A stretch of 64,000 nt of DNA from Lonicera japonica (lineage: Eukaryota; Streptophyta; Magnoliopsida; Dipsacales; Caprifoliaceae). The stretch covers positions 25,573,325 to 25,637,324 of the forward strand of contig CM038468.1 in assembly GCA_021464415.1 (NCBI GenBank), in the 5' to 3' direction. Under the pieces are notes generated by a model. The model saw only the letters and a program-made list of their open reading frames with translations. It searched no databases and was not told the DNA's origin. This document shows positions 32,684 to 60,657 of this stretch, piece after piece (position 1 is the first letter of the stretch; every line of letters starts with the position of its first letter). Both the position numbers and the translations under genes were made by a program.

Positions 32684-33475
32684 GGCAAACCTAATTCCAT
32701 AGTATGGAATTGGAATTGGAGCATGATTTTAGAATTTCATTGTTTGGATGGACAAAAAGGTTATGGTTTTGGAATTCCGGTATAATTCCAAGACTATCAA
32801 TTCTACAGGATTGAATTCCATATGAAGAGTAGAGCTTTCCAATTACAATTCTCAATGAATTCTAATAAATACTAACTATCAATCACCACCACTCCACCTA
32901 ACCCCTTTTCCAACCCCCAGCCACCACGTACAACACAGAGTGCCCCTCTCCCCCCCCCCCCCCCTCCATCCCACCAAACACCACTTTACAAAAGTGCGTC
33001 ACCATTATAACTATATAGATTAGAAATGTTTAATATATACCTACGTAAGCATTTTATATATTATATATCTACGGTACAAATAATATATATGCACGTATTA
33101 TATATATATATAGTAAATATATGTATGTATATCTACACTATATATACTACTAAACAACCTTCCTACCACTACCTATTGACAACACTTACTCTCAAAACTC
33201 TTTGGCAACTTGATCGGAGTTCCAATGATCTATTTGGACTCCAGCAATGGGTGGTATGTCGGACGTTCTTCAAGATCGTTGTTTCTTTGGAATTTCAAAT
33301 GAATTCGATAAATTAACCAAACAAATAAATTTGAAATCCTAATAAAATTCCAAATGAAAATTAAACTACATACAATCAAAACAATAGTATTGTAATTCTT
33401 TGGCATTACTATTCCATAGAATCACAATTCTTATATAATTCCAAAACTATGCAACTAAATGCACCCTTACTCTTT
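32684..33475. mobile_element. MITE-like element with AATTCCA-rich ends
   Basis: The ends GATGTGTTTGG and (other strand) GGGTGCATTTAGT are roughly inverted, and both sides carry many GGAATT/AATTCC motifs in opposite orientation. No transposase was found. Confidence 0.35.
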
Positions 33476-33857
33476 TCTATGAAAAATTCTTTACACTAAC
33501 GAAAACAATTACAAAGGAACCGAACACAATTTATCATTATTATTTACGTCCGTTATTATGTGTTAATTGTTAAATAGTGAAAAGGAGATGAACATGAAAT
33601 GAATGAGAGGGAACAGAAGGTTGTGCATTAATTAAACTCTCCATTCATATATATTGAGATATATATATATATATACATGAATTGAATATACATAGGTACG
33701 GCCATAAATCTACTTTCCTTTATTGTTTACCAACAACACTTTAATTGCAACTTCAACTCATAATTACATATGTAGATACATACATAAATAGAAACATATA
33801 TATCTAGAATACTCCATATTTAGCTAGAAATTAAAGTTCCAAATAATATTTTGGATC

Positions 33858-33929
33858 ATGAGTAATTTTCTTCCAAAGAAGCCTCATTTCTTCAAGCCTG
33901 TCCTTCCTAATTTCAAACATAATGGTCTT

Positions 33930-34000
<71 letters not shown>

Positions 34001-37000
34001 CAACCCTTTTTTTCTACTTGGGAGACATTTAATCTTTCTTTTCAGTATCACATTCGTAATTTGGTCATACTCCTCTAGTGGCCAGGTTACCGTGATCGAT
34101 ATACTTGATTTTGATCGGTTGATGTATTAAAATAATTATCGTGATATTGTTACTCAAATGCATGAACTCAAATTGAATCCTCATTTGACAAGATAAAAAG
34201 AAAAATTGGATCAACAAATTGATCTCGACTCTTATATACAACTTTTGACTCATGTTATTAGTCTCATCTTTTTTGGGGGGGCATATTAAATTGACAGTCT
34301 TATTTCCTTTTAAGAGCATACTCATTCTTACAACTAAGGCGGATTGAACACTAAATAAGCATTTAATTTGATACTATTTGCTAATTTGTATATGCAGTTA
34401 ATACCCATAAGCTTCATGGAGAGGTACTTAAAGGGACAAAAGATGGAGTATGGAGAATTGAGAAGGGGGAATAGGAAATGGAAGGTGAAGATAATAAATG
34501 GGAGGGTTTTGGTAGAAGAAGGATGGTCCAAATTTTGGGAGGAAAATGAAGTTGAAGTTGGTGATTTCTTGGTTTTTAGACATGAAGGAGACTTGGTTTT
34601 TGAGGTTTTGTTATTTGATCCCTCTGCACTTCTTAAACCAATATTATTTCCTCCTCCTCATGTTAAACAAGAAATTATACTTGATGATCACCAGAGTCCA
34701 CTACTTGCAAAATGTGTGAAACAACACAAATTTCATGGTATATGTTTATTTTTCTTATTTTAATTGTCATCTTAATGCTTCTAAACAAAAAATATTTCTT
34801 CTTGATAAATATTGTGTTGTAATTAAGGGTCAAATAAAATTCCAAAGGGGAAGCAAAGGGCATGCACAAAGTTTGGTTATGAAGACAAAGCTATCTCTTC
34901 AAGAAATACTCATAGTGATGGATATCCTTATTTCACCTCCACTTTGACTCCCTACAATATCAAGTCTGCTTTGGTGAGTAATAAATTATATCCTTTCGTT
35001 AAGAATTAATACGAAATTATCAATTAGTCCATTATAAAATGTTTGGGCCAACAGACTTTTATTGTTGGCGTTTTCTGTCTTCATAATAAGAAGATTCTAG
35101 GTTAAACTCACATAAACGTGGTTGTCAAAACCTTATAGGTGTGGTAGTTGTATGGCCACCTTTTAGTCCATGGTTATAAATGTGTATTGTGAAATCATTT
35201 CTTTATGTACAAGGACGGAGCCAGAATGCGAAAACTGGGAGGGGTCATGGGAATTATCATTGCGGTAGATTTCGTTGTTTCTAAAAAGTTGTAAGGAAAA
35301 CGAACCATCAGCCATGGCCAGAGGAGGATGAGAGCATACCCTCGTTTTTTTGCCCTTTTCGTAGTACGAAGTTTTATAGACCTTTTTGTGAGTTTTCAAA
35401 CTTTAGGGTTTTGTTCAAAATTACCAAAAACATAAAGGTGAATTTTGTATTGAGGTAACAAAGCGCTCCGCCCCTGGTTCATTCAACTGAGCTTTTTATT
35501 ATTATTACAAAATTCACATTAATGTTCTCAATAATTACAAACAGAACCCTAAAGTTTGAAATTTACAAGAGGATCATAAAACTTTTTTATTACTCCATAT
35601 ACCCTATTGTTTTCTAAAATTCTAGATAGGGCCGTAGCCCCCCATGGTCCCAGATATATCCGCCCCTGTTTGTATGTATAAAAAATAGGTTGTATTAGGA
35701 AATCATCCACTTTGTATATAAAAAAAATGTTTTAATATTTGGAGTTGTGATAATTCTGACTCGATAATATATATGATAATCATGAAATGTGTTCGATCAT
35801 TAATATTTGTTAATTGGTTAACCAATTAGTATCTGTGCACGAGATTATACTATATTATGAGGGCGAGATTCATTAGTTTCAACAGCTTGAATTATGCTAA
35901 AAAAAATTAGTGCATTTTTGGCTCTTGTGATTTTCTATTTTTATTTAAAAAAAATAAAAATTGCCGGCAACAAGAATCAAACTTTGATCTTAAAACAAAA
36001 CACTCGGTGCTAGTTGATTCATTTCTATAATCTTAAATTGCTAAATTCACACACTAGGAGTTTCTTATAATTCATGTTAAGAGGTTAAATTATAATTTAT
36101 GAGACTCAAATCTAATTTCAATGTGAAATTACCATTTCTGATTACAGGAATGAACAATAACTCGAACCAAACGAGTACTCATAGTTAACCACTAGATCAA
36201 TTTCCCTTTTGTCAGATCTTTCACCTTAAATTCTATACATGCGAGTAGCGCATGAATCAAGTGCCCAAATGATCTAGTTCGTATATATATTAAGTCTGAT
36301 CGAACACTCAATTACTCGATCTCTGTACTACTAGGCCTTCTTTGTACCAAGTCTACTGGACTTGAACCGCCAACTCTCCAGAACCGAGATGTTAATATTG
36401 TCCACCATAGAATTATTGTGCCTAAATCCCCAGTTCTCTATACCGTACCTGAGACTTAAACTCCAGCAATCCGCGCCACCATAATATTAGGCATAAATCC
36501 CCAACTCCCCGTCGGTCTTCTGGACTTTAACCCGATATATTATTTGATATTGTTATTTGGAAGTGCATAGTTTTTTAATGTGTGCCTGCATGCGACTGAA
36601 TATATAGTTTCAAATTGATACTGTATACAACTTTATTTTGGCAGAATATTCCAATGAAGTTTGCTAGGCTGAATGGTTTAGCCAGTAGAGATTGCGAGAT
36701 GATAATGAAAGACGAAAGGGGAAGGTCATGGCCTCTGAGGTTGAAGCATGATGGAAGTCATGTTTATATTAGTAGAGGATTTCGACAATTCAATGTTGCA
36801 AATGGCCTAAAAGCAGGAGATTCATTCATCATCCAGCTACTCCACAATGGATACAAGCCTCTAATGAATTTCATTAGTAACCTCATCTCTCTCTCTCTCT
36901 CTCACACGCGCACACATGTACACAAATACTTCTCCACTAGTCCAGTACTACTGATCAATTTTTTCACATTTTATTACTGTATAACCAATGGGAATTTAAC

Positions 37001-38677
37001 CCCTGCTGTCAGCAGAGGTGAATTGTAGTACTTCTTAACAACTGAGATGCAAATCATTCTTTTAGTATTTTCTCCTTAAAATGGCATATGTGCTAGTTGC
37101 GCGTATAAGAAAATCAAGTATATATATAGGAAATTGTGTGTACAAAGAAGATGGTGTATAAGTCAGACATATTGTGGCTAACTTTGATGAATGTTTGTGT
37201 CGTAAAGGATTAAATAAAATCCCAAAGACGAAGCCGGCACGCAAGTTGGTTTTTGAAGAGAAAGCTAGTTGTTCAAGAAATTCTAATGATGGAGGAGAAC
37301 ATGGACATCCTTCTTTCAGTTCGACTTTGACAGCATCTAATATCAACATCAACGTGATGGTGAGCGATATTATTTCGAGCTTTATTAGTGCTGATTTAAT
37401 ACATATATATAAGTTTATAAAGAAAAACATTAAATATTTATTATCTTTGAAATTTGAATTGTCTTTTCACCTTGTAACATTTTCGGTTTGGCAAGAAAAG
37501 GAATCCCTCACAGTTTTTGGTAGGAAAAGCCTGACTTTCAATATCATGAATCAGCCAAATCGATCACACTGACTTGACTCATCACTTGAGCCAAGTCTGT
37601 CTGATTTGGCTAATTCATGAAAGTGAGGGGTTGGGGAAAACTACTTGTACCTTCTCCGCATTGAACGTTGTTTGATACTTTATTTTAAAATTGCATATTA
37701 TAAGGTGTGCACGGATTCGCAAATGGAGTATGAAGTTTCAAAATAATATACCATTTTATTGTTGCAGTATATTCCAATGGAGTTTGCTAGGACCAATGGT
37801 TTAACAAATAGAAAGTGTGAGATGATTATGAAAGATGAAAAGGGAAGGTCATGGCCTATGAGATTGAGGCATAATGGAAGTCATGTTTCTGTTAGTAAAG
37901 GATTTCATGAATTCCATACTGCAAATGGCTTAAAAGAAGGAGATTCATTCATCATCCAACTGCTCCAAAATGGAAACAAGCCCCTTATGAATTTCCTTGG
38001 TAATCTCTCTCTCTCTCTCTCTCATTCGGGTACACAATTTTTTCAAATTATGATTTTAATTCACGCATAAGCTAATAAGCTGCATCAGAACCGCACAGGC
38101 GGGTTGTCTCTCCCTGGATTTGAAATTTTTTTCCTACATTTAGGGTATTTTTTGACAAAAAAAAATTATATAATTTATATATATAGGGACATGTGTTAGA
38201 ACTTGAAATTTGAGGATGCGTGTTAGGAGTCCAAACTTCAAGGGTCAAGTGAAACTTTAAAATTACTTTAACCAATTAATATATCCGCACCTCGCGGTAC
38301 ACGTACATACTATTTTTCCTCTTTTCTGAGTTCTCTCACTCAGTCCACTGTCCAGCAATTCGTTCTCCTCCTTTCACTTCTTCTTCACTTCTCTAGTTCT
38401 CTCACACAAGCCCGTCCACTGCCCACAGTGCACCGTGGCACTGCCCCTGCCCACTGCCCACACACTATTAATTTCTCTTGAGAAGGAGGAAGTGTTGCAA
38501 TACTTTTAAAATATGAAATCCCGTAAAATATACATCAACTATTAATTATGGTCTCTAAATGTAGAACAAATATATAATTTTACGGCCACACGTGTTGAAA
38601 TTTGAGCAGGTATTCGTGAACACAAAATTGGCATAGTAGAAGGAAAGAAGCAGATCAAAAGAGAGCGAAAATACTAA
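33858..38677 (+). CDS. REM-type transcription factor with three B3 domains (REM-B)
   Basis: Close paralogue of REM-A. Exons 33858-33929, 34398-34737, 34828-34973, 36645-36876, 37208-37359, 37768-37999 and 38610-38677 join in frame to 413 residues. B3-1 (about 7-108) has PKKPHFFKPVLPNF, RKWKVKI and GDFLVFRHEGDLVFEV. B3-2 (about 170-264) and B3-3 (about 300-392) each have the HPSFSSTLT-type start (YPYFTSTLT in B3-2), CEMIMKDE and GDSFIIQLL. The end is basic (KKQIKRERKY). The protein is expected in the nucleus. The gene lies tail to tail with the kinesin gene, about 0.9 kb from its stop codon. Exons 5 to 7 recur at 48633-50125 across the assembly gap. Alternative: exons 1-4 and 5-7 could belong to two transcripts, but the exon 4/5 phase fits and no start lies between them. 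Confidence 0.87.
33935..33996 (+). repeat. (CT)n tract after REM-B exon 1 donor
   Basis: About 60 bases of pure CT starting 5 bases after the splice site (GTAAGTCTCTC). Confidence 0.95.
34974..36644 (+). other. REM-B intron 3
   Basis: 1.67 kb. 35205-35672 is a degenerate element whose ends (ACGGAGCCAG and, inverted, GGGGCGGA) resemble a common plant non-autonomous transposon. The rest is AT-rich without a coding signal. Confidence 0.45.
36885..36903 (+). repeat. (CT)n tract after REM-B exon 4 donor
   Basis: A short tract, 8 bases inside the intron, ending in CACACGCG. Confidence 0.85.
37534..37624 (+). ncRNA. miRNA-like imperfect hairpin in REM-B intron 5
   Basis: The arms CATGAATCAGCCAAATC and GATTTGGCTAATTCATG pair with one mismatch. 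Inward, GACTTGACTCA pairs with TGAGCCAAGTC with one mismatch, and outward CTTTC pairs with GAAAG after a small bulge. Total stem is about 32 pairs around a short loop. This could be a pre-miRNA, a MITE remnant or a chance foldback; expression is unknown. The right duplicate has it at about 48983-49073. Confidence 0.4.
38004..38023 (+). repeat. (CT)n tract after REM-B exon 6 donor
   Basis: Starts 4 bases inside the intron; same at 49452-49471 in the duplicate. Confidence 0.85.
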
Positions 38678-39593
38678 GGCACACTCAACTATATCTTAGT
38701 GTATTTTGAAGCAAAGGTATACCTCCTTTTTAGTTTGTATAATATATGACTTTTGTGGGACGATCTTTTTGGTAAGTTGTGGGACTTTCTTTTGGGCACA
38801 AGTGTAACCTGTTGAATATTAATTACTATAAATATAGGGCAAGATTTTTTGAGGCCGGATTTATCGACGTCTCAATTGACTCGCAAATGCATTAAGAAAG
38901 CAGGAACTCGCAATAAATAGTCTATTCATGACTTAGCCCATTTAGTCGGGCAATAAAAGGGAGTCATGTTAACTCTCACCCGAGAAATGTTAACCAATCA
39001 AAAATCAATGTTTTTCTAGATATTATTGAAAAGGAAGATTTGTACACGGAAAATAATTCAATTTCACAAAATTCTGACATAAAAACAGTTTTTTCTATGA
39101 GAAATAAAAATTGGGGATCGAGGTGGTTTTTGTATTACATGAAGAATTGAAAATTAGGCTTTACCAAGTCGTACAATGGAATTGATTTTGGAAAATTATA
39201 CAATCAAACACCACTAAAGAACTAAACATGGAAAATATAAAACTACAAGCATTTTTCATTGTGTTATCAAACACACCCTTTAGAAACATAAACATGCCAA
39301 GCTTTATACGTAGGTAATTGTGAACTTTGGCTTGGGAAAAAATGAATAGAATCATTTTCCATTCATTCAATTCTTATGATATGGAAGAAGAATCCATAGT
39401 GAATACAAAGCAGAACAAGACTACAACCAATACAAACAAATTGGTGATCCCAACTGATGATTTTCCCTGTAAAAAAAAAAATACGCCAAAAACTGCTACA
39501 ATCACAGTACACACATGTATATATATCTATATAAACAACAGAAAATGCTGGTAGTACACACAAATTTGTTCGCCATTATAATATCCTGTCCCT
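38678..39593. other. Convergent intergenic space, REM-B to kinesin
   Basis: 3' flanks of the two genes. 39010-39300 matches 28680-29000. No further gene seen; the kinesin 3' UTR should lie in the right part. Confidence 0.5.
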
Positions 39594-42500
39594 CTATATG
39601 TTGCACCGGTCGTAGCCGGAGAACCAAGATGGCTCTGCTAGTTTCGATATCTCCCCTTCTCCGACTTTATAAACTTGCTCAAATTCCACTCTCCATTGCT
39701 CATCACCATTACTATGGGCCACCACTGAATCGTATTTGGCCACAACCGGTTCATCATAAACGGGATCATCAAAAATGGGTGGCTGTAATGCTGCTTCTTT
39801 AGGCAAACGGGATTCAGCAAGTAACTGATTCAAAGTGGTGATCTCCTTTTCGTGTTTTTTCTTCAGTTTATCAATCTGTTTGTACGCCTTCTCAGCTTCT
39901 TGCTCAGCCTCTGCTGCATGTGCCTGCAATTTTTTTGAGATTTCTTAGACAACTCCAAATTAAATAATTACTGTGTTGAATTTCATAGATTATTAAGCTC
40001 TTGTTTTCGGATACTCCTCCCTGCCAAATTAAGAGTTCACGATTCCTTTTTGGGATGTTTCATATTAATCAACAGACTCTTAACTACGGACAGAGGGAGT
40101 ACTTCATAATAAGCTTTTCAAGACACAAATTGCATGTACCATTCTCTGTCGCTAAAATGTCACAATCCGGGAAATTGGGGTTGGCAGCTGGGCTCCCCCC
40201 ATCCCAAATTTAAGTTTCCATGTGACTTTCACATTTCTAAGAATTCAGTAATTCACTAGTTTCATCACTACCAAATGTTTAAAACAAGAACTTGTTTCTT
40301 ATTGTGAGTTTTGGTACACTAATTATCTTTTGAAAAGGAAAGTGGACTCTTAGTTTGGGATGAAGGGCGTAAAAGACTAAATAATACACATGATGAAGGA
40401 TGCAAAAGAAAACCGAACAAACATAATACGTCAACAGAGTAACAATAATACTCACCTGGGCAGCAGCAACAATTTCTTCAGCTTCTTTAAGCCGAACGAG
40501 TAATTCACCGGCAGCCTGTACAGCTTCTGCAGTATCCCTCAATTGAGCCTGAAGCCCTTTGTTCTCATCCTTTAGATACCGTCTCTCTTTCTCTCTCTCC
40601 ACTTTTAGAGCAGAAATCTCTGCCGCTAAGCGTTTATGAACTTAGACTCAGCACCCCTAACTCCAGCTTTAGCCGCTGCTTTCTTCACATCATCTATTCC
40701 CTCTTGCATCTTTCTGTGCCTCATAAGTAGTTGTATATGTTTCTCCTCGAGATCTACATATTGTTCAAGTAAACGTGCATGGCCCTGCATTGCCATTTGC
40801 ATTGCTTCCTTCAATTCTTCTGAACATTCTTTCTCCATTTTGAGTTCTTGCTTTTGTTTTTCAGTAACCGAGCGGTTAGCTTCTAGCTCAATTCTCAATT
40901 CTTCTGCTAGAGAGATCCACTTGCTCTCAGCTTCATTCCATTGATTCCTTTCCAGTTCGAGTTTCCTCTCAGTACTGTCCTCAGTCGTCTCTGTAATTGT
41001 GCACAACATTGGAGTGGGCTCGCATAATTGTAGAAAAGGACTTCGTTTTCGAGCCAACTTAGGTGAAGTGTCTATATAGTATTGAAGTTGGCTTCGTAGG
41101 TCTTGAATTTCTTCGACTAGTACGTCCCTTTCACCCATATCGAAGAAGTTCCGATAACGTTCTAGCTCATTTTGAACTCTTTTTAGCTCAATTTTCGTGC
41201 TTAGAACTTCGGGGTGATTTTCATACTTTTCCTTCAAAAGCTGTTTTACCAAATGGAACATGGATAACAACAGAGATAAGTACTAAAACAATTGAGGTCA
41301 GTTTGTTCAAAAACAGTTGGATTACAAAAACAATTGATTTTTGTGATAAGCTGAAAAAACTAGATGGTGATTTGAAGAGATATTTTTAATCTTTTCTTCC
41401 TTTTACATAGAAAATTTTTCTTGCCCATCATCCCCCAAAGAATTGGATTCCATAGAAAAACCACATAAGTAATTGAACTCTCATAAATATTACTATTGTT
41501 TCAATCATTTTCCAACTGTTTACAAACACAACCTAAAATTATGAAATTTTACTGATCAAAGTGAAAATAAATGCATACCATATGCTCATTTTTCAGTGAT
41601 AGTAATTCATTGTCAACAAATTCCTCGGAAGATAAAATACCATCCATGAGGCTCTCGAGGCGAATGATTTTATCTTCCCGTGTTTGCCCAATTATAGCAT
41701 TGCATTCCCTCTCATGTTTGTACTGTTGAACCTGTTATTGATGGCCAAAAATTATCAAATGGAGGAAAAGGATTTCATCATTCTGATCTGGTCTAACAAT
41801 AGAAAACCTACCAAACGATTAAGGTGCATAATTTCAGAATTTTGCTTCGTGCAGAACTCTTCAATTGCCATCTCTCTCCTTATTGCCCCTGCCAAAACCT
41901 TTTCTACAGCCTGCCAGATAATAAATTGTTAAACATACATAACAGTCAAGAGCGTAATTTTAAGAGTCCATTTGATAAAAAGTTGGAAAATGATTGAAAC
42001 ACTGCTTATGTTTATGATAAATTGGACAAAAGGATGAATGATTGGTGAGATGTTGTTCATCTTCTGCTTACTTTTCACCGAAAAAATTTCTTTCCCACCA
42101 CCCAAAGAAATTTTGTTCCATAGAAAATAGAAACATCTCATCAAATTACTCCTCTTTTTCAACTTCTCGTAAAAATTACTAGTGTTTTCAATCATTTTAA
42201 CGCCCTAAGTGCCCAAAATTTCATGGGGGATGCCTACAAACGTACTCTGGGAACTTGCTTCATGGACTTGTCAGCTAGATGAGACCCATCAACAGGTACT
42301 AACATGAACTTGTCGGCTAGATGAGACCCATCAACAGGTACTAACATGGACTGGTCGGCTAGATGAGACCCATCAACAGGTACTAACTGCATATTTGAAA
42401 CTTCATTACCATCTTTAGGCTCTTGAGAGTTCTTGCATTTACTGCACAAATATTCCGACAAATCCTCTTCCACCAAATCATCATCTTGAAGAAGAGTTTG

Positions 42501-45500
42501 AACACCCACATCGACTTTGTGAACAAGTACTGGCTTAATATCTGCAGGTTTGTAAGAAAACCTGAACGCTGACCTCCTCAAAACGAACTCTGCCGATGAC
42601 TGTCTATAATTTCAAGACCACGATGGAGACTAGCCGCCAAATTATCAGTTGGTTGAAAGCAACTTTTACTGCTTTGAGTAGACAGGGATTTCATACAGAT
42701 GCTGCTATTTGAGGGCTTTGCACTGAGATCTTTCTGAGAAGCAGTTGACATTGATGAAGTCCTAAGACTTTTTCTGCTGTCATTATTAGCTCTTGGTGAA
42801 ACACTTGGAGTTGGAGATTCAAGAACAGGGGATACATCACAGGAAATATGCTGAGGTTAGGAGGAACAAGATCATGTGAGCCATTTGGCGAAGCTTGGTT
42901 CTCACAGATATCAATCACTGGTTTTCTAGGTGATTCTTCATTCAGTAAATTATTTGGTGCAATTTTCAGCTTCAGTCTTTACAAAACATGATGTATTCAT
43001 ACATGATTCCTGACAATGAGCAACAGAGATTTCTTGTTTGTCAACCTGTTTAAGAACTTCTTCTTCCATAGTGGCATCAGTATCCTCGGAATGTTGTTCT
43101 TCAATATACGGACTTTCAGATGTGTTTGGGTAAGGATCCACAGTGTCTTCTTTCGAGACCATAACTCTTGAATTTAAATCCAAAGTTTCTGCTTTACTTC
43201 CATTCAGAGCATCATTTTCTTCAATAGCTGCTACAGCTTCCTCAATAATTTCCATTTCTTCATCACTATCATCATCTACACGAGGTAACCCCATCGGACG
43301 ATTAAGGCTGAACTTAAGGAGATTCAAGCTTCTACGAGCATTCCAACCTGTTAAGTGACCTCCGTTCAGGTCACTTTGGGCACCATTTGCTTTCATTCGA
43401 AGTAATTCATCCTGTCAAATATTTTATGTTAGAGAATGCTTTGTCTAATGTCATATTTGGTAACATATATTACTCACTAGCTTACCTTGAACACGTGATG
43501 TGTGTGCGATTTGTATATATATAGCATATTTGGGTAAAAGAATTGCACAAAAGTAGCAAGTGGCCTAGTGGATTGATGAGCATATGTCAAATTTACTTAG
43601 ATGCAAAGGTTCGAATCTAGTCAGAAACATGTTTACTATGAAAAAAGAATACTAGAGGGTTAAAATCAGCAATTCAAAATTGTGACACAGTTTCATGGCG
43701 GTTGAATTCCGCTTTGGCTTTATAATATTAGATAAACAAAAATTAAAAGAAATCTCTAAAAGAAATAGAAAGCGTGGAAACCTTTAGCTGTCTTATCACT
43801 TCACGCAAGACATTCACATCATCTTGCATTTCTTCATTGATAATTGCCTTGTTCTTAATAGCCTTTGCACGTTGTGCAAATCTCAGTGTACTAAAGGTCT
43901 CACTCTTACAGCTGCATCATCAACCCATGAAATTTCAAAAAGAAAGAACTTTTTTTACTTTGCCCCCCATTTTATATGCAAAATTTGACTTACCAACCCT
44001 GCATGCGGGGAATCTCACAGAGTTGCATAAAAACAGGGGTTAAGTCAAAGGATTACGTTAATAGAACTAGACATTGCTCCCCAGTTTTACATAATTCTTT
44101 GAGATTCCTTTGCATATGGGCATGGTCTAATGATTATGAAAACAATGGGTATGTCTAGTTTCGCATTAAGAACGGGGGGGCAAAGTCCAAAAACCATAAA
44201 AAGAAAGGGAGGAAAGAGAGGTTTTGCCATCACCTTTGTGAGGGAGAAATTGCACAAACCATTGCTAGTTTTGAATTTCCACCAAGAGATTCCTGCAGTA
44301 AGAATGTCAATTTGGAATCTCGGTAAGGGATGTGCCTTTGCTTTCCTGTTTGGGAAACTTCAGCAAGAATGTTTATCAAGTTCCTGCAATTGTTCATCAT
44401 AATGACAATCAGCACCAGAAACAACAAAAAATTGACTTGGAAGAAGCTTGAATCAAAAGGTCATATTATGTATGTAAGGTTATACATGATATTCATTTAG
44501 CTTCACATCTTCAGGGAAAATTAGGCCTAGGCAATGGGCCGAGCTGGGCCTACCCAGCCCAATTTTTAAGGCCCACGTGCCTTTTTGGGGCTAAGATTTA
44601 ACCAGTCAACAGGCAGGGCCAGGCCTAAGAGTTGAAGGCATATCCAAGGGCCACAGCTGCCCATGGGCCTGCCCAAATGGGCTCTTTTCGGGACAATAGC
44701 TAGAATAATATTTCAGAAGGTCTTCTGTGAAAGAAAATCTTGAACAATGTACAAATTCTCCTCTATGGAAAAAACGCAATCATGAATCCCAGCCAATACA
44801 AGTTATTGGAAACAATACCCAACATGGAAAATAAGGGGATGTCTATTCATTTATAAAGATGGAGAAATAAACCAGACGAACAATAACTAGATGCAGTGAA
44901 AATGGATGCTTTTTTTATTTTCAAGGAACATAAAATATAGAAGAAATTGGTTGCTTCAATTCATCAAGATCAGATACTTTTGAAGAAGCAAACTTCCAAT
45001 ATCGATTAAAGATGAGGTGCCCAAAAATGCGTCTTTACAGACTTTTCAATAATATGATAGTTTTCGAGTTCAGAGCAAGGATTTCATTAAGTTACACTTT
45101 AATGCAACCAATATTGGCCAATTTATATTTTGGAACCAGTTTAACTTGGATGTTTTTGTTTAGACACAATATCAGCATGTCAGTTTATTTTTTTCCCCTC
45201 CATATTACATTTACTTCAATACAAAAAAGTTCAAAGCACAATTGAAACTATATGCGTCAGTACAATAACTTAAGTGAAATAAACATCCTCCAATCCTTGC
45301 AATAACTTTACATGGCTTTTAAGTTTTAATTTTAATTAGACTCTCTACTAAATCACTACTCAATATCTTAGACTCTAGTGAGCTCTCTATCTTAACCTGT
45401 GTTCTCCACTATACAGCACATAACGTATATATAACAACAGATTGCATTGAAATAATCACTTAGCTTGGGCTTTTTTTGACTTTGCCCACAATTTTATATG

Positions 45501-47759
45501 TGAACTTAAGAGATTTGGCATTAAAAATAGGGGGCAATGTCAAAAAAAGTCCTTAATTTTTACTGATTGCAACTAAGTAATCACAGAAGTCCAAAAATCC
45601 ACTGATGCAATGCAAAATTAACATTAACAACTGCTAATGATTTTTAATACCCGAGCTGTGAAAGAGAACGATTTATATTCCCAGCTTCCTTTAACCGCTC
45701 TCCAGCTGCACCAGTTAGCTTCTGTCTTTCCGATCCAGCAAGATCAACAAGATTTATTCTACTTGTTTTAAAGCAGCTCAAACCATCTGCAACACTCTAG
45801 ATTATTGAAGATTAAATTAGACTACATTTAGCAAAAAATCTAATCAAAAAATCAAGAAACTAAAACTATGCCATTTCCTCATAGAAAAGAAAAGTGTATA
45901 TATAATTCTCTAATCTAACAAATAACTAGATAATAATCTGTCCTCCCAATCCATGATTGATACCTTGCATCGTGATTCAACAACACAAGTAAACACACTA
46001 TGTGAACGCGAACTCTCGGCATTTATACTTGTTGCACCAGTCCTCCTATTTGACAAACCCTGCATCAATATTATGTTAAGTTATATAATTAATATGAATA
46101 AAAAATAAAGTGCGCACTAGTAGTTCAAGATCAAATATAGATTAATGCAAAGGAGGAGACACAGTTGTATCTCTTGTTCATATCATCTTGCGCCTCACAA
46201 CTGGGATTCAATTATGTTAGTACAGGTAGGCATTACTTTAAATCAGCACACGTCATTTGAGAAGAAAGCAAAATTAGCCGTTCCAACATTTGCTATAAGA
46301 CCAATAAGTCAGGCATTTCACACTTGCTTGTATCAAGGCTAAGTAAAAATTAATGCCAAAAAATGGGAGTTGTAGACTTGTTTTACCATAGAATTAAGAA
46401 AACTGACAGTTTAGTTTAGCATTAAATTTGCAAGATTCCAACAAAAAGTTACAGGAAAGAAGTAGAATAAAACCCCAAGAAGATTAAGTGTCTTGTGTTT
46501 CTCATGCAGTTTACTTTCTTGTTCTGTAACCGTTACACAATAAAATGCTATACTATAAATTGTAAATCAAATACAGGCCAACGGATTCACCAAATTGATC
46601 AGCAACAGACACAACAAAATTCCATTCAGATTTCACTCCTTATATTGCCTTTGAGGAATCACAAAACCCTAAACATGAGAGAAAGCATAAAAGATGTTCA
46701 AACCTTTTATCAAAAGCTGTGTAACATCTTCATAGTGCTCACACATTCCTCTGTCAAATTTTCAACATAAACACCAGTTTTGACATCTTCTCTTATCTGA
46801 AAGGAAAATGCCAATGTTTGAAAGAAATTGTAGAAAACCAGATGGATAATGGGTGTACAGCATTCAAACAATATTATTTATATAATATCCTTTACCTGGG
46901 GTTCCCTTGACTTGGATCCAATAAATCGGTGATTTGTTCATTGTAAATCTGTAAACACGTAATTTGAGGATTAAGTGGAGTGGCGTGAAGTAATTAATGT
47001 CATGTACATCATTTGCGCATAATAAGAGTACAACCTCAAGAAAGGAACAGCGACATTGATATCTGAGTTGCTTGTCAGCATGCTTTTCTTGCTCCTACAA
47101 TAAAAATGGTCATTGATAAAAAATTGAATGAAACCACATAAATAATAATAAATTATGATGATATCACATATAGCCTAACCATCTTTTTTTGTAATGCAGA
47201 ATATAAAGTCACACCTCGTTTATGCGAGAAAAAAGTTGCTGAAAGACTCGAGGTGTTAAACCTTGCTGGTCACTAGATAGGTTCTCGTGCAACAAGCGTT
47301 TGCTGGTCCCATATTGTTACGTCTTCCCTCCCAGTCTAATAATTACAATTCAGAGTATATGAATGATGTATAACAGACACAAATCATGACATTATAATAT
47401 ATACATTTGGTTAAGTCAAGCAGGTAACTGTCGTATGCAAAAACAGAACTGTTGAACCCAGCAAGACAGTTTTCAACAAGCGGAGCTCCAACAAACTGGT
47501 ATATGTCTTGCTGAAATTTACCAAAATAAAAAATGGACACAGATAATATAAGTATTTTTACGTATAATCATCAAAATTTGTTTCAGTAGTCAACAGAAGA
47601 AAGCAAATAACAAGAGTTTACCTGTGTTGATTCTGCATCTGCAACAGAATCAAATGTAAATGTCTGTCCATGAATCGACAAAGAGTCGCCAGATACTTTC
47701 TGGACTATCATATCTCCTTCTTCTCATATTTATTAGGTGGCCGCATTCGCACTATAAAC
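39594..47759 (-). pseudogene. KIN12A/B: Kinesin-12 (PAKRP1-like), left copy, broken and lacking exon 1
   Basis: Exons 2 to 16 of the right copy can be found here (exon 16 at 39594-39923, 15 at 40456-41240, 14 at 41579-41731, 13 at 41812-41910, 12 at 42246-43411, 11 at 43782-43911, 10 at 44234-44383, 9 at 45652-45797, 8 at 45965-46060, 7 at 46704-46796, 6 at 46896-46948, 5 at 47035-47094, 4 at 47215-47335, 2 at 47622-47759). Lesions: one base lost near 40627; one lost near 42581; one lost at 42840; one gained near 42953; compensating +1/-1 in exon 7 causing a stop; -1 in exon 6; five bases lost in exon 4, destroying the P-loop; exon 3 donor lost; +1/-1 in exon 2. Exon 1 would lie in or beyond the gap. 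A real pseudogene and poor consensus sequence are both possible; the pattern favours the latter. Confidence 0.8.
43561..43618 (+). mobile_element. SINE-like (tRNA-derived) head in kinesin intron 11
   Basis: TGGCCTAGTGG at 43561 and GGTTCGAATCT at 43608 match polymerase III A and B boxes at nearly tRNA spacing, on the strand opposite to the gene. The body between them does not fold as a tRNA by eye. The duplicate is at 55009-55066. Confidence 0.45.
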
Positions 47760-48276
47760 CTAAATTTTATGACAGTGACAACGGAATCAGTAAAGAACTA
47801 AACATTACATTTTGTTTCACAAAGTAGGCTTCATTATGCTGCTCCTACTGATGCCAAATTACCATAGCCTTCGCTCTAATGAAAAGTAAATCCAGAGAAA
47901 AAATGTATCAACATTTAACGAGAACAGAAAATGAAATCTGAATATTCTGGTCTTATTGCAACATTTTCCCAAAAGTTAAAAATTACATTTCAAAATAAGA
48001 AGATAAGGGCAAAATTGTCCAAATAACATTCCTTTGGCATTCAAATGAAACAACACTTGGTTACATGACATTCAGAGCCAGAGAAACCAAAGTTGTCTTA
48101 TTTAAAAAACATTAACATTTACATTCAGTTTCTCTAGAACAGTTCCGGAGAACTCCGACTTTTAGTCTTCAAGTTATAACAAAACAAACACACATCGCTT
48201 CGCATGAAAAAAAAAAAAGAATTGAAAAATTATTTCGAAAAACCTTAACCCAGAAAGGTTATTCCCAAAAGACCTT

Positions 48277-48376
48277 NNNNNNNNNNNNNNNNNNNNNNNN
48301 NNNNNNNNNNNNNNNNNNNNNNNNNNNNNNNNNNNNNNNNNNNNNNNNNNNNNNNNNNNNNNNNNNNNNNNNNNNN
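48277..48376. other. Assembly gap, exactly 100 N
   Basis: A round-number run of N is the usual placeholder for a join of unknown length. It lies precisely between the two copies of the 11.4-kb duplication. Confidence 0.99.
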
Positions 48377-48632
48377 ACTGATCAATTTTTTCACATTTTG
48401 TTACTGTATAACCAATGGGAATTTAACCCCTGCTGTCAGCAGAGGTGAATTATAGTACTTCTTAACAACGGAGCCGCATATCATTCTTTTAATATTTTCT
48501 CCTTAAAATGACGTATATGCAAGTTGCGCGTGTAAGAAAATCAGGTATATATAGGAAATTGTGTGTACAAAGAAGATGGTGTATAAGTTTGATATATTGT
48601 GGCTAACTTTGATGAATGTTTGTGTTGTAAAG

Positions 48633-50125
48633 GATTAAATAAAATCCCAAAGATGAAGCCGGCCCGCAAGTTGGTTTTTGAAGAGAAAGCTAGTTGTTCA
48701 AGAAATTCTAATGATGGAGGAGAACATGGACATCCTTCTTTCAGTTCGACTTTGACAGCATCTAATATTAACATCAACGTAATGGTGAGCAATATAATTA
48801 TTTTAGAACTTATATGACACGATAACTGTACACGAATTTTGAGCTTTATTAGTGCTGATTAAGTTTATAAAGAAAAACATTATATTTCTTATCTTTGAAA
48901 TTTGAATTGTCTTTTCACTTTGAAACATTTTCAGTTTGGCAAGAAAAGGAATCCCTCACAGTTTTTGGTAGGAAAAGCCTGACTTTCAATATCATGAATC
49001 AGCCAAATCGATCACACTGACTTGACTCATCACTTGAGCCAAGTCTGTCTGATTTGGCTAATTCATGAAAGTGAGGGGTTGGGGAAAACTATTTGTACCT
49101 TCTCCACATTGAATGTTGTTTGATACTTTATTTTAAAATTGCATATTATAAGGTGTGCACGGATTCGCAAATGGAGTATGAAGTTTCAAAATAATATACC
49201 ATTTTATTGTTGCAGTATATTCCAATGGAGTTTGCTAGGACCAATGGTTTAACAAATAGAAAGTGTGAGATGATTATGAAAGATGAAAAGGGAAGGTCAT
49301 GGCCTATGAGATTGAGGCATAATGGAAGTCATGTTTCTGTTAGTAAAGGATTTCATGAATTCCATACTGCAAATGGCTTAAAAGAAGGAGATTCATTCAT
49401 CATCCAACTGCTCCAAAATGGAAACAAGCCCCTTATGAATTTCCTTGGTAATCTCTCTCTCTCTCTCTCTCATTCGGGTACACAATTTTTTCAAATTACG
49501 ATTTTAATTCACGCATAAGCTAATAAGCTGCATCAGAACCGCACAGGTGGGTTGTCTCTCCCTGGATTTGAAATTTTTTTCCTACATTTAGGGTATTTTT
49601 TGACAAAAAAAAATTATATAATTTATATATATAGGGACATGTGTAGAACTTGAAATTTGAGGATGTGTGTTAGGAGTCCAAACTTCAAGGGTCAAGTGAA
49701 ACTTTAAAATTACTTTAACCAATTAATATATCCGCACCTCGCGGTACACGTACATAACTATTTTTCCTCTTTTCTGAGTTCTCTCACTCAGTCCACTGTC
49801 CAACAATTCGTTCTCCTCCTTTCACTTCTTCTTCACTTCTCTAGTTCTCTCATACAAGCCCGTCCACTGCCCACAGTGCACCGTGGCACTGCCCCTGCCC
49901 ACTGCCCACACACTATTAATTTCTCTTGAGAAGGAGGAAGTGTTACAATACTTTTAAAATATGAAATCCCGTAAAATATACATCAACTATTAATTATGGT
50001 CTCTAAATGTAGAACAAATATATAATTTTACGGCCACACGTGTTGAAATTTGAGCAGGTATTCGTGAACACAAAATTGGCATAGTAGAAGGAAAGAAGCA
50101 GATCAAAAGAGAGCGAAAATACTAA
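48633..50125 (+). pseudogene. REM-B exons 5 to 7, second copy (partial gene)
   Basis: Exons 48633-48784, 49216-49447 and 50058-50125 match REM-B exons 5 to 7 with open frames and good splice sites, encoding the third B3 domain and the basic tail. Exons 1 to 4 are cut off by the gap. If the duplication is an assembly artefact, this is REM-B itself seen twice; if it is real, it is a 5'-truncated gene or one whose start lies in the gap. Confidence 0.8.
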
Positions 50126-51041
50126 GGCACACTCAACCATATCTTAGTGTATTTTGAAGCAAAGGTATACCTCCTTTTTAGTTTGTATAATATATGACTT
50201 TTGTGGGACGATCTTTTTGGTAAGTTGTGGGACTTTCTTTTGGGCACAAGTGTAACCTGTTGAATATTAATTACTATAAATATAGGGCAAGATTTTTTGA
50301 GGCCGGATTTATCGACGTCTCAATTGACTCGCAAATGCATTAAGAAAGCAGGAACTCGCAATAAATAGTCTATTCATGACTTAGCCCATTTAGTCGGGCA
50401 ATAAAAGGGAGTCATGTTAACTCTCACCCGAGAAATGTTAACCAATCAAAAATCAATGTTTTTCTAGATATTATTGAAAAGGAAGATTTGTACACGGAAA
50501 ATAATTCAATTTCACAAAATTCTGACATAAAAACAGTTTTTTCTATGAGAAATAAAAATTGGGGATCGAGGTGGTTTTTGTATTACATGAAGAATTGAAA
50601 ATTAGGCTTTACCAAGTCGTACAATGGAATTGATTTTGGAAAATTATACAATCAAACACCACTAAAGAACTAAACATGGAAAATATAAAACTACAAGCAT
50701 TTTTCATTGTGTTATCAAACACACCCTTTAGAAACATAAACATGCCAAGCTTTATACGTAGGTAATTGTGAACTTTGGCTTGGGAAAAAATGAATAGAAT
50801 CATTTTCCATTCATTCAATTCTTATGATATGGAAGAAGAATCCATAGTGAATACAAAGCAGAACAAGACTACAACCAATACAAACAAATTGGTGATCCCA
50901 ACTGATGATTTTCCCTGTAAAAAAAAAAATACGCCAAAAACTGCTACAATCACAGTACACACATGTATATATATCTATATAAACAACAGAAAATGTTGGT
51001 AGTACACACAAATTTGTTCGCCATTATAATATCCTGTCCCT

Positions 51042-54000
51042 CTATATGTTGCACCGGTCGTAGCCGGAGAACCAAGATGGCTCTGCTAGTTTCGATATCT
51101 CCCCTTCTCCAACTTTATAAACTTGCTCAAATTCCACTCTCCATTGCTCATCACCATTACTATGGGCCACCACTGAATCGTATTTGGCCACAACCGGTTC
51201 ATCATAAACGGGATCATCAAAAATGGGTGGCTGTAATGCTGCTTCTTTAGGCAAACGGGATTCAGCAAGTAACTGATTCAAAGTGGTGATCTCCTTTTCG
51301 TGTTTTTTCTTCAGTTTATCAATCTGTTTGTACGCCTTCTCAGCTTCTTGCTCAGCCTCTGCTGCATGTGCCTGCAATTTTTTTGAGATTTCTTAGACAA
51401 CTCCAAATTAAATAATTACTGTGTTGAATTTCATAGATTATTAAGCTCTTGTTTTCGGATACTCCTCCCTGCCAAATTAAGAGTTCACGATTCCTTTTTG
51501 GGATGTTTCATATTAATCAACAGACTCTTAACTACGGACAGAGGGAGTACTTCATAATAAGCTTTTCAAGACACAAATTGCATGTACCATTCTCTGTCGC
51601 TAAAATGTCACAATCCGGGAAATTGGGGTTGGCAGCTGGGCTCCCCCCATCCCAAATTTAAGTTTCCATGTGACTTTCATATTTCTAAGAATTCAGTAAT
51701 TCACTAGTTTCATCACTACCAAATGTTTAAAACAAGAACTTGTTTCTTATTGTGAGTTTTGGTACACTAATTATCTTTTGAAAAGGAAAGTGGACTCTTA
51801 GTTTGGGATGAAGGGCGTAAAAGACTAAATAATACACATGATGAAGGATGCAAAAGAAAACCGAACAAACATAATACGTCAACAGAGCAACAATAATACT
51901 CACCTGGGCAGCAGCAACAATTTCTTCAGCTTCTTTAAGCCGGACGAGTAATTCACCGGCAGCCTGTACAGCTTCTGCAGTATCCCTCAATTGAGCCTGA
52001 AGCCCTTTGTTCTCATCCTTTAGATACCGTCTCTCTTTCTCTCTCTCCACTTTTAGAGCAGAAATCTCTGCCGCTAACGCGTTTATGAACTTAGACTCAG
52101 CACCCCTAACTCCAGCTTTAGCCGCTGCTTTCTTCACATCATCTATTCCCTCTTGCATCTTTCTGTGCCTCATAAGTAGTTGTATATGTTTCTCCTCGAG
52201 ATCTACATATTGTTCAAGTAAACGTGCATGGCCCTGCATTGCCATTTGCATTGCTTCCTTCAATTCTTCTGAACATTCTTTCTCCATTTTGAGTTCTTGC
52301 TTTTGTTTTTCAGTAACCGAGCGGTTAGCTTCTAGCTCAATTCTCAATTCTTCTGCTAGAGAGATCCACTTGCTCTCAGCTTCATTCCATTGATTCCTTT
52401 CCAGTTCGAGTTTCCTCTCAGTACTGTCCTCAGTCGTCTCTGTAATTGTGCACAACATTGGAGTGGGCTCGCATAATTGTAGAAAAGGACTTCGTTTTCG
52501 AGCCAACTTAGGTGAAGTGTCTATATAGTATTGTAGTTGGCTTCGTAGGTCTTGAATTTCTTCGACTAGTACGTCCCTTTCACCCATATCGAAGAAGTTC
52601 CGATAATGTTCTAGCTCATTTTGAACTCTTTTTAGCTCAATTTTCGTGCTTAGAACTTCGGGGTGATTTTCATACTTTTCCTTCAAAAGCTGTTTTACCA
52701 AATGGAACATGGATAACAACAGAGATAAGTACTAAAACAATTGAGGTCAGTTTGTTCAAAAACAGTTGGATTACAAAAACAATTGATTTTTGTGATAAGC
52801 TGAAAAAACTAGAAGGTGATTTGAAGAGATATTTTTAATCTTTTCTTCCTTTTACATAGAAAATTTTTCTTGCCCATCATCCCCCAAAGAATTGGATTCC
52901 ATAGAAAAACCACATAAGTAATTGAACTCTCATAAATATTACTATTGTTTCAATCATTTTCCAACTTTTTACAAACACAACCTAAAATTATGAAATTTTA
53001 CTGATCAAAGTGAAAATAAATGCATACCATATGCTCATTTTTCAGTGATAGTAATTCATCGTCAACAAATTCCTCGGAAGATAAAATACCATCCATGAGG
53101 CTCTCGAGGCGAATGATTTTATCTTCCCGTGTTTGCCCAATTATAGCATTGCATTCCCTCTCATGTTTGTACTGTTGAACCTGTTATTGATGGCCAAAAA
53201 TTATCAAATGGAGGAAAAGGATTTCATCATTCTGATCTGGTCTAACAATAGAAAACCTACCAAACGATTAAGGTGCATAATTTCAGAATTTTGCTTTGTG
53301 CAGAACTCTTCAATTGCCATCTCTCTCCTTATTGCCCCTGCCAAAACCTTTTCTACAGCCTGCCAGATAATAAATTGTTAAACATACAAAACAGTCAAGA
53401 GCGTAATTTTAAGAGTCCATTTGATAAAAAGTTGGAAAATGATTGAAACACTGCTTATGTTTATGATAAATTGGACAAAAGGATGAATGATTGGTGAGAT
53501 GTTGTTCATCTTCTGCTTACTTTTCACCGAAAAAATTTCTTTCCCACCACCCAAAGAAATTTTGTTCCATAGAAAATAGAACATCTCATCAAATTACTCC
53601 TCTTTTTCAACTTCTCGTAAAAATTACTAGTGTTTTCAATCATTTTAACGCCCTAAGTGCCCAAAATTTCATGGGGGATGCCTACAAACGTACTCTGGGA
53701 ACTTGCTTCATGGACTTGTCAGCTAGATGAGACCCATCAACAGGTACTAACATGAACTTGTCGGCTAGATGAGACCCATCAACAGGTACTAACATGGACT
53801 GGTCGGCTAGATGAGACCCATCAACAGGTACTAACTGCATATTTGAAACTTCATTACCATCTTTAGGCTCTTGAGAGTTCTTGCATTTACTGCACAAATA
53901 TTCCGACAAATCCTCTTCCACCAACTCATCATCTTGAAGAAGAGTTTGAACACCCACATCGACTTTGTGAACAAGTACTGGCTTAATATCTGCAGGTTTG

Positions 54001-57000
54001 TAAGAAAACCTGAACGCTGACCTCCTCAAAACCGAACTCTGCCGATGACTGTCTATAATTTCAAGACCACGATGGAGACTAGCCGCCAAATTATCAGTTG
54101 GTTGAAAGCAACTTTTACTGCTTTGAGTAGACAGGGATTTCATACAGATGCTGCTATTTGAGGGCTTTGCACTGAGATCTTTCTGAGAAGCAGTTGACAT
54201 TGATGAAGTCCTAAGACTTTTTCTGCTGTCATTATTAGCTCTTGGTGAAACACTTGGAGTTGGAGATTCAAGAACAGGGGATACATCACATGGAAATATG
54301 CTGAGGTTAGGAGGAACAAGATCATGTGAGCCATTTGGCGAAGCTTGGTTCTCACAGATATCAATCACTGGTTTTCTAGGTGATTCTTCATTCAGTAAAT
54401 TATTGGTGCAATTTTCAGCTTCAGTCTTTACAAAACATGATGTATTCATACATGATTCCTGACAATGAGCAACAGAGATTTCTTGTTTGTCAACCTGTTT
54501 AAGAACTTCTTCTTCCATAGTGGCATCAGTATCCTCGGAATGTTGTTCTTCAATATACGGACTTTCAGATGTGTTTGGGTAAGGATCCACAGTGTCTTCT
54601 TTCGAGACCATAACTCTTGAATTTAAATCCAAAGTTTCTGCTTTACTTCCATTCAGAGCATCATTTTCTTCAATAGCTGCTACAGCTTCCTCAATAATTT
54701 CCATTTCTTCATCACTATCATCATCTACACGAGGTAACCCCATCGGACGATTAAGGCTGAACTTAAGGAGATTCAAGCTTCTACGAGCATTCCAACCTGT
54801 TAAGTGACCTCCGTTCAGGTCACTTTGGGCACCATTTGCTTTCATTCGAAGTAATTCATCCTGTCAAATATTTTATGTTAGAGAATGCTTTGTCTAATGT
54901 CATATTTGGTAACATATATTACTCACTAGCTTACCTTGAACACGTGATGTGTGTGCGATTTGTATATATATAGCATATTTGGGTAAAAGAATTGCACAAA
55001 AGTAGCAAGTGGCCTAGTGGATTGATGAGCATATGTCAAATTTACTTAGATGCAAAGGTTCGAATCTAGTCAGAAACATGTTTACTATGAAAAAAGAATA
55101 CTAGAGGGTTAAAATCAGCAATTCAAAATTGTGACACAGTTTCATGGCGGTTGAATTCCGCTTTGGCTTTGTAATATTAGATAAACAAAAATTAAAAGAA
55201 ATCTCTAAAAGAAATAGAAAGCGTGGAAACCTTTAGCTGTCGTATCACTTCACGCAAGACATTCACATCATCTTGCATTTCTTCATTGATAATTGCCTTG
55301 TTCTTAATAGCCTTTGCACGTTGTGCAAATCTCAGTGTACTAAAGGTCTCACTCTTACAGCTGCATCATCAACCCATGGAATTTCCATTTCAAGATTAGA
55401 GGCAAAAAGAAAGAATTTTTTTTACTTTGCCCCCCATTTTATATGCAAAATTTGACTTACCAACCCTGCATGCGGGGAATCTCACAGAGTTGCATAAAAA
55501 CAGGGGTTAAGTCAAAGGATTACGTTAATAGAACTAGACATTGCTCCCCAGTTTTACATAATTCTTTGAGATTCCTTTGCATATGGGCATGGTCTAATGA
55601 TTATGAAAACAATGGGTATGTCTAGTTTCGCATTAAGAACGGGGGGCAAAGTCCAAAAACCATAAAAAGAAAGGGAGGAAAGAGAGGTTTTGCCATCACC
55701 TTTGTGAGGGAGAAATTGCACAAACCATTGCTAGTTTTGAATTTCCACCAAGAGATTCCTGCAGTAAGAATGTCAATTTGGAATCTCGGTAAGGGATGTG
55801 CCTTTGCTTTCCTGTTTGGGAAACTTCAGCAAGAATGTTTATCAAGTTCCTGCAATTGTTCATCATAATGACAATCAGCACCAGAGACAACAAAAAATTG
55901 ACTTGGAAGAAGCTTGAATCAAAAGGTCATATTATGTATGTAAGGTTATACATGATATTCATTTAGCTTCACATCTTCAGGGGAAAATTAGGCCTAGGCA
56001 ATGGGCCGAGCTGGGCCTACCCAGCCCAATTTTTAAGGCCCACGTGCCTTTTTGGGGCTAAGATTTAACCAGTCAACAGGCAGGGCCAGGCCTAAGAGTT
56101 GAAGGCATATCCAAGGGCCACAGCCTGCCCATGGGCCTGCCCAAATGGGCTCTTTTCGGGACAATAGCTAGAATAATATTTCAGAAGGTCTTCTGTGAAA
56201 GAAAATCTTGAACAATGTACAAATTCTCCTCTATGGAAAAAACGCAATCATGAATCCCAGCCAATACAAGTTATTGGAAACAATACCCAACATGGAAAAT
56301 AAGGGGATGTCTATTCATTTATAAAGATGGAGAAATAAACCAGACGAACAATAACTAGATGCAGTGAAAATGGATGCTTTTTTTATTTTCAAGGAACATA
56401 AAATATAGAAGAAATTGGTTGCTTCAATTCATCAAGATCAGATACTTTTGAAGAAGCAAACTTCCAATATCGATTAAAGATGAGGTGCCCAAAAATGCGT
56501 CTTTACAGACTTTTCAATAATATGATATTTTTCGAGTTCAGAGCAAGGATTTCATTAAGTTATACTTTAATGCAACCAATATTGGCCAATTTATATTTTG
56601 GAACCAGTTTAACTTGGATGTTTTTGTTTAGACACAATATCAGCATGTCAGTTTATTTTTTTCCCCCTCCATATTACATTTACTTCAATACAAAAAAGTT
56701 CAAAGCACAATTGAAACTATATGCGTCAGTACAATAACTTAAGTGAAATAAACATCCTCCAATCCTTGCAATAACTTTACATGGCTTTTAAGTTTTAATT
56801 TTAATTAGACTCTCTACTAAATCACTACTCAATATCTTAGACTCTAGTGAGCTCTCTATCTTAACCTGTGTTCTCCACTATACAGCACATAACGTATATA
56901 TAACAACAGATTGCATTGAAATAATCACTTAGCTTGGGCTTTTTTTGACTTTGCCCACAATTTTATATGTGAACTTAAGAGATTTGGCATTAAAAATAGG

Positions 57001-60000
57001 GGGCAATGTCAAAAAAAGTCCTTAATTTTTACTGATTGCAACTAAGTAATCACAGAAGTCCAAAAATCCACTGATGCAATGCAAAATTAACATTAACAAC
57101 TGCTAATGATTTTTAATACCCGAGCTGTGAAAGAGAACGATTTATATTCCCAGCTTCCTTTAACCGCTCTCCAGCTGCACCAGTTAGCTTCTGTCTTTCC
57201 GATCCAGCAAGATCAACAAGATTTATTCTACTTGTTTTAAAGCAGCTCAAACCATCTGCAACACTCTAGATTATTGAAGATTAAATTAGACTACATTTAG
57301 CAAAAAATCTAATCAAAAAATCAAGAAACTAAAACTATGCCATTTCCTCATAGAAAAGAAAAGTGTATATATAATTCTCTAATCTAACAAATAACTAGAT
57401 AATAATCTGTCCTCCCAATCCATGATTGATACCTTGCATCGTGATTCAACAACACAAGTAAACACACTATGTGAACGCGAACTCTCGGCATTTATACTTG
57501 TTGCACCAGTCCTCCTATTTGACAAACCCTGCATCAATATTATGTTAAGTTATATAATTAATATGAATAAAAAATAAAGTGCGCACTAGTAGTTCAAGAT
57601 CAAATATAGATTAATGCCAAAGGAGGAGACACAGTTGTATCTCTTGTTCATATCATCTTGCGCCTCACAACTGGGATTCAATTATGTTAGTACAGGTAGG
57701 CATTACTTTAAATCAGCACACGTCATTTGAGAAGAAAGCAAAATTAGCCGTTCCAACATTTGCTATAAGAACCAATAAGTCAGGCATTTCACACTTGCTT
57801 GTATCAAGGCTAAGTAAAAATTAATGCCAAAAAATGGGAGTTGTAGACTTGTTTTACCATAGAATTAAGAAAACTGACAGTTTAGTTTAGCATTAAATTT
57901 GCAAGATTCCAACAAAAAGTTACAGGAAAGAAGTAGAATAAAACCCCAAGAAGATTAAGTGTCTTGTGTTTCTCATGCAGTTTACTTTCTTGTTCTGTAA
58001 CCGTTACACAATATAATGCTACTACTATAAATTGTAAATCAAATACAGGCCAACGGATTCACCAAATTGATCAGCAACAGAACACAACAAAACTTCCATT
58101 CAGATATTTCACTCCTTATATTGCCTTTGAGGAATCACAAAACCCTAAACATGAGAGAAGCATAAAAGATGTTCAAACCTTTATCAAAAGCTGTGTAACA
58201 TCCTTCATAGTGCTCACACATTCCTCTGTCAAATTTTCAACATAAACACCAGTTTTGACATCTTCTCTTATCTGAAAGGAAAATGCCAATGTTTGAAAGA
58301 AATTGTAAGAAAACCAGATGGATAATGGTGTACAGCATTCAAACAATATTATTTATATTATATCCTTTTACCTGGAGGTTCCCTTGACTTGGATCCAATA
58401 AATCGGTGATTTGTTCATTGTAAATCTGTAAACACGTAATTTGAGGGATTAAGTGGAGTGGAGTGAAGTAATTAATGTCATGTACATCATTTGCGCATAA
58501 TAAGAGTACCAACCTCAAGAAAGGAACAGCGACATTGATATCTGAGTTGCTTGTCAGCATGCTTTTCTTGCTCCTACAATAAAAATGGTCATTGCATAAA
58601 ATATTGAAACCACATATAATAATAAATTATGATGATATCACCATATAGCCTAACCATCTTTTTTTGTAATGCAGAATATAAAGTCACACCTCGTTTATGC
58701 GAGAAAAAAGTTGCTGAAAGACTCGAGGTGTTAAACCTTGCTGTTCACTAGATAGGTTCTCGTGCAACAAGCCGTTTGCTGGTCCCCATATTGTATACGT
58801 CTTTCCACTCCCAGTCTAATAATTACAATTCAGAGTATATGAATGATGTATAACAGACACAAATCATGACATTATAATATATACATTTGGTTAAGTCAAG
58901 CAGGTATACCTGTCCGTATGCAAAAACAGAACTGTTGAACCCAGCAAGACAGTTTTCAACAAGCGGAGCTCCAACAAACTGGTATATGTCTTGCTGAAAT
59001 TTACCAAAATAAAAAATGGAAACAGATAATATAAGTATTTTTACGTATTAATCATCAAAATTTGTTTCAGTAGTCAACAGAAGAAAGCAAATAACAAGAG
59101 TTTACCTGTGTTGATTCTGCATCTGCAACAGAATCAAATGTAAATGTCTGTCCATGAATCGACAAAGAGTCGCCAGATACTTTCTGGACTATCATATCTC
59201 CTTCTTCCTCATATTTATTAGGTGGCCGCATTCGCACTATAACCTAAATTTTATGACAGTGACAACAGGAATCAGTAAAGAACTAAACATTACATTTTGT
59301 TTCACAAAGTAGGCTTCATTATGCTGCTCCTACTGATGCCAAATACCATAGCCTTCGCTCTAATGAAAAGTAAATCCAGAGAAAAAATGTATCAACATTT
59401 AACGAGAACAGAAAATGAAATCTGAATATTCTGGTCTTATTGCAACATTTTCCCAAAAGTTAAAAATTACATTTCAAAATAAGAAGATAAGGGCAAAATT
59501 GTCCAAATAACATTCCTTTGGCATTCAAATGAAACAACACTTGTTACATGACATTCAGACAGAGAACAAAGAAATTTTTCATATTCAGTTTCCAGACTTC
59601 GGAACCAGTCTTTTAGTCTTCAGATTCATACAACAAAACAAACACACCCTTAGCATAAAAAACATTAACAGGTTACCAAAGCCTTTTGCTCTATGGAACA
59701 GTAAATCCGGAGCAAAAAAAGCATTAACAGTTGACCAAAGAGAAACTCGGATCTGAATGTTCTCGTCTTATTGCAATATTAACCCAGAATTTCAAATCTT
59801 AATGCACATCGCAGAAAATTCGAGTAATTGAAAAAAAAAAATTAGAATTTGAAAAATTATTTCGAAAAATTCCCTTAACTCCAGAATCAGAAGGGGTAGG
59901 TAATCCATTTAAATTCAGACTTTACTGTTTAGAAAAATGATCAAAGTAACATGTTCAAAGTATAAGAATTCAGATATTACATTCAGACAAGAAACAAACG

Positions 60001-60625: not shown

Positions 60626-60657
<32 letters not shown>

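Follow-up and report, generated by a model that had tools for sequence, protein, structure and literature searches.

Does the genome of the honeysuckle Lonicera japonica carry a kinesin gene and its neighbouring B3-domain gene twice in tandem, or has one locus been written twice into the assembly? The question is raised by a direct repeat within the window, the whole 64-kb stretch of DNA analysed here (C6:25573325-25637324, in an assembly of 886,079,548 bp and 967 sequences; positions without a prefix are those of the window). By self-BLAST of the window, positions 36950-48092 recur at 48377-59571 with an identity of 98.42% over 11,219 columns, including 77 mismatches and 52 gap openings. An original prediction, made from the letters of the sequence, had described the copies as nearly identical, in keeping with these figures, and had explained them as probably two overlapping contigs that were never merged, naming two haplotypes placed in series as the other artefactual option.

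The sole N run in the window, 100 bases at 48277-48376, lies between the copies as the scaffold gap that joins both contigs, and the homology is bounded by this gap on both sides. To the right, the match opens at 48377, the first base past the gap and the counterpart of 36950, which is precisely where the right-hand sequence had been predicted to begin; 36950 itself sits just after a segment that matches the B3 exon at 79% by DNA (36540-36916) and before that exon. To the left, the final ~184 bases before the gap are jumbled, and 48205-48255 pairs with 59829-59886 after a jump of ~170 bases in the right copy, in line with the predicted end of the left sequence near the equivalent of 59905. That this end falls within kinesin intron 1, as was also proposed, fits as well, because the left sequence stops short of the frame of the presumed exon 1 (60125-60592, minus strand). 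The left copy accordingly runs from 36950 to 48276, with a B3 exon on the plus strand and, on the minus strand, a kinesin gene without its exon 1, and the right copy from 48377 to 59886. The geometry alone is not decisive, as a real tandem duplication whose junction fell within an assembly gap would look identical.

Both copies contain an open frame for a B3 domain on the plus strand (37747-38070 on the left and 49195-49518 on the right; each Pfam PF02362, E 1.4e-17), and we take these B3 genes to belong to the REM group. The kinesin, presumably of the KIN-12/PAKRP1-like type, is fuller on the right, where it occupies approximately 51042-60592 on the minus strand. A kinesin motor was recognised by Pfam in three of the four right-copy exon frames of one set (55699-55926, 57116-57265, and 57382-57549), while no Pfam match was obtained for the frames 51727-52731, 53682-54863, 58339-58626, 59070-59243, and 60125-60592; the further kinesin frames (51042-51392, 51727-52731, 53682-54863, and 59070-59243) were assigned by their order and strand. 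The open frame 60125-60592 probably belongs to the kinesin as its first exon, judging by its order and by a diverged kinesin on an unplaced sequence (C427:133340-143154), which is 67-79% alike in DNA pieces, this frame among them, and shares in part the order in which it and the later exons follow one another. The left kinesin (39594-48092, minus strand) is truncated, with no counterpart of the presumed exon 1, and its frames are broken. The right-hand frames of 393 (53682-54863) and 334 (51727-52731) amino acids are open, whereas their left counterparts are interrupted by one-base differences near 40630, 42584, 42842, and 42953, and the RMRPP frame is broken on the left by another at 47723.

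The decisive evidence comes from an unplaced sequence of 202,719 bp, C966, in which the REM-gene region to the left of the repeat appears in another version, inverted; 72,719 of its 202,719 bases were compared. Base 1 of C966 aligns at window position 36949 on the minus strand and reads leftwards from there, with C966:1-7205 (reversed) as the 95.7% counterpart of the left-hand sequence at 29721-36949. When the last 2,000 bases of the reversed C966 are joined to the 2,000 bases that open the right-hand sequence, the composite aligns to the left sequence as a single block of 4,021 columns with 95.7% identity, and no base is gained or lost at the joint. The far end of C966 (C966:200001-202719) matches C6:25457979-25460690 at 99%, so that its two ends bracket a 152-kb stretch to the left of the gap, vs 203 kb for C966 itself. 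An assembly search with 37000-39000 found two near-identical places, both in the window, with C966 giving only pieces of 66-90%, as expected if C966 stops at 36949, and the best 40 candidates for the kinesin sequence 51000-55000 included no match in C966. These alignments are most simply explained if the sequence from 48377 onward and C966 were a single contig, cut exactly there; 36950 is then the mark of a cut within a longer contig and not of a natural contig end. No single contig holds both copies, given the gap between them and the continuation of the right contig into C966, where no kinesin was listed; likewise, a continuous junction from the end of one unit to the start of the next is absent, the junction consisting of N only and the leftward continuation of the right unit being C966.

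The differences between the two versions are distributed unevenly. Between the left sequence and C966, 29721-36949 shows 24.6 substitutions/kb (111 of 178 being transitions), and between the left and right copies the first 1.75 kb of the repeat (36950-38700) shows 20.6 substitutions/kb (28 of 36), so that the divergence runs on across the joint. The copies are much closer in 38701-46000, at 2.7 substitutions/kb, and this approximately ninefold drop on passing from the REM array to the kinesin gene could reflect either a genuine shift in diversity or a left contig that switches haplotype. The transitions of 36950-38700 are lopsided, with 21 sites pairing a left-hand C/G with a right-hand T/A vs seven of the reverse kind, against directions of 50 to 61 for the left sequence and C966. 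Further along, 46001-48092 contains 30 one-base indels, 24 of which are a base missing on the left, and six substitutions, none of them a transition, a pattern that presumably reflects long-read errors left uncorrected where the contig ends; the error-rich terminal part of the left contig is placed at 46001-48276. The earlier claim that the left copy becomes error-rich only towards its end holds, with the nuance that frame-breaking indels occur already from 40630.

Beyond the overlap, the locus appears once. The kinesin sequence 51000-55000 has two near-identical matches in the assembly, both in the window, among the best 40 candidates. No second near-identical copy was found of 59950-60700, which contains the presumed exon 1 and has C6:25633274-25634024 as its one near-identical match among the best 40 of 65 candidates, nor of 60800-63800 among its best 40, apart from a repeat of ~360 bp and short weak pieces. 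Any near-identical copy would be expected among the highest-ranked of these candidates.

Each version also bears one LTR-type insertion that the other lacks at an otherwise matching, unoccupied site. The insertion at 12941-20861 on the left, with terminal repeats of 772 bp that are 99.1% alike and a 5-bp target duplication, is missing from C966; conversely, the 5,740-base LTR-type element at C966:21891-27630, with identical (100%) terminal repeats of 541 bp and a 4-bp target duplication, is missing at window 4275-4278. Several repeats resembling the B3 exon by DNA similarity are present in window 1-38000, and a direct repeat at 6633-8277/8277-9886 has an identity of 91.5%. The compared parts of C966 match window 1-38000 only in blocks, and the structure of the REM array therefore probably differs between the haplotypes.

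Taken together, these sequence comparisons make it very probable indeed that the repeat would be a heterotype false duplication, in which two haplotypes of one locus have been placed in series across a gap. The tandem kinesin copy is thus most likely not a real duplication, and each haplotype most likely carries, at the true locus, a single kinesin and a single copy of one REM gene, the REM-B of the original prediction. The artefact proposed there is supported, in that the rest of the right contig appears to be C966, which abuts 48377 to the base, and its second option, two haplotypes in series, is the better form, as the contigs, with 24.6 substitutions/kb between C966 and the left sequence and 20.6 at the start of the repeat, look like the two haplotypes and not like identical overlapping ends. 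An overlap of two contig ends of the same haplotype, unmerged only owing to errors at the left end, could draw on the low divergence of 38701-46000 and on the one-base indels that make up most of the differences in 46001-48092, but 20-25 substitutions/kb in the first 1.75 kb and in C966, multi-base indels, and different LTR-type insertions leave it very little probability. A real, recent tandem duplication of REM-B and the kinesin, the gap concealing its junction, is slighter still as a prospect: a gap inside such a duplication would give the same geometry and the B3 exons are open in both copies, yet the contig of the right copy continues leftwards into the REM cluster of C966 and not into another kinesin, no further near-identical match to the presumed exon 1 was found among the best 40 of 65 candidates, and the left frames are broken.

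It may also be asked whether C966 and the right sequence together form a separate paralogous locus, derived from an old segmental duplication and misplaced on C6. The divergence of 2.5% near the joint and the 51-kb difference in size both exceed what the mean heterozygosity would lead one to expect, the published genome-wide mean being 0.74%. On that reading, however, the left contig should continue on its own past kinesin intron 1, and no second near-identical 59950-60700 or 60800-63800 was found among the best 40 candidates for each; moreover, C966 agrees with C6 at 99% at its far end. A separate locus is accordingly as improbable as the tandem duplication, and C966 and the left contig would appear to be alleles rather than paralogues.

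The history of the assembly offers a plausible origin for such an arrangement. The window's assembly is almost certainly that of L. japonica 'Sijihua' described in PMC9130202, for which 967 scaffolds, nine pseudochromosomes, and 886.13 Mb in scaffolds are reported, vs 886.08 Mb in the sequence analysed (a difference of 52 kb). According to the main text of that paper, PacBio long reads (SRP353698) were processed with Canu correction, SMARTdenovo, Pilon, and LACHESIS; the heterozygosity is given as 0.74%, the genome size estimate as 817 Mb, which the assembly exceeds by ~69 Mb, and the duplicated BUSCOs as 5.70%. The words purge, haplotig, and redundan are absent from this main text, which names LACHESIS with no mention of contig splitting. 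From its table, the scaffold total exceeds the contig total by 91,400 bases, equivalent to 914 gaps if all are of 100 N, as is the one gap examined. Since the table gives 1,519 contigs (the text has 1,159), the resulting 967 + 914 = 1,881 pieces would imply several hundred cuts.

Five of 20 unplaced sequences whose size was seen are exact multiples of 100,000 bp (C11, 200,000 bp; C950, C963, and C965, 100,000 bp each; C960, 300,000 bp), which points to fixed-bin cutting, and a cut of this kind in the Hi-C step with LACHESIS probably made the break at 36949/48377. In the workflow outlined in PMC11676654, contigs were similarly cut into segments, of 50 kb on average, before Hi-C grouping with LACHESIS, as against multiples of 100 kb here; no paper with the wording "100 kb segments" was found in the literature. 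On the assumption that fixed bins were counted from the far end of the right contig, gaps would be predicted at multiples of 100 kb to the right of 48377, but none of the 60 places inspected (1-60 x 100 kb, up to 6 Mb) contained N; the right piece may extend beyond 6 Mb, or the bins may have been counted in another way. C965 was considered as a second cut haplotig and set aside: it matches C3:39349605-39350283 in pieces of 91-97%, but the adjoining 2 kb of C3 is largely high-copy repeat.

The sequence of events may thus be envisaged as follows. Two haplotypes of one honeysuckle locus would have been assembled as separate contigs, the left one ending, in poor sequence, in kinesin intron 1, and the other consisting of C966 (reversed) followed by the sequence from 48377 onward. 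Scaffolding would then have cut the second contig between C966 base 1 and 48377, leaving the 202,719-bp part unplaced, and the remainder, of which the right copy would be the first 11.5 kb, would have been set after the left contig with 100 Ns, the 11.4 kb of allelic overlap being kept. In PMC9516828, heterotype false duplications are described as alleles that are scaffold neighbours with a gap between them and a partial extra gene, as for ZBTB11 and NPNT, a form that the honeysuckle repeat fits. That source recognises such cases by half read depth, by k-mers that are single-copy, by read pairs that map discordantly, and by an assembly gap that parts the copies along one scaffold; the gap is present here (48277-48376, 100 N). 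The honeysuckle case differs from those in PMC9516828 in concerning a plant and not a bird or the platypus, in that the rest of the other allele survives in the assembly as an unplaced sequence, and in that the cut can be placed to the base.

For the published honeysuckle assembly, this reading would remove a likely false gene gain, namely a second, broken kinesin together with a partial REM gene. It also makes the locus repairable, with C966 belonging to the same contig as C6:25621701 onward. Given the apparent fixed-bin cuts and the silence of the main text on purging, other joins in the assembly may hold similar overlaps. Last of all, the contrast between the two versions deserves attention in its own right: a REM (B3) array of ~152 kb vs ~203 kb, diverged by ~2.5% at the joint and bearing separate young LTR-type insertions, with an approximately ninefold fall to 0.27% in the kinesin, could reflect a real and unusual difference between haplotypes, although we regard this as rather unlikely. 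If true, it would fit a REM haplotype of old or introgressed origin that has stayed heterozygous in a cultivar.
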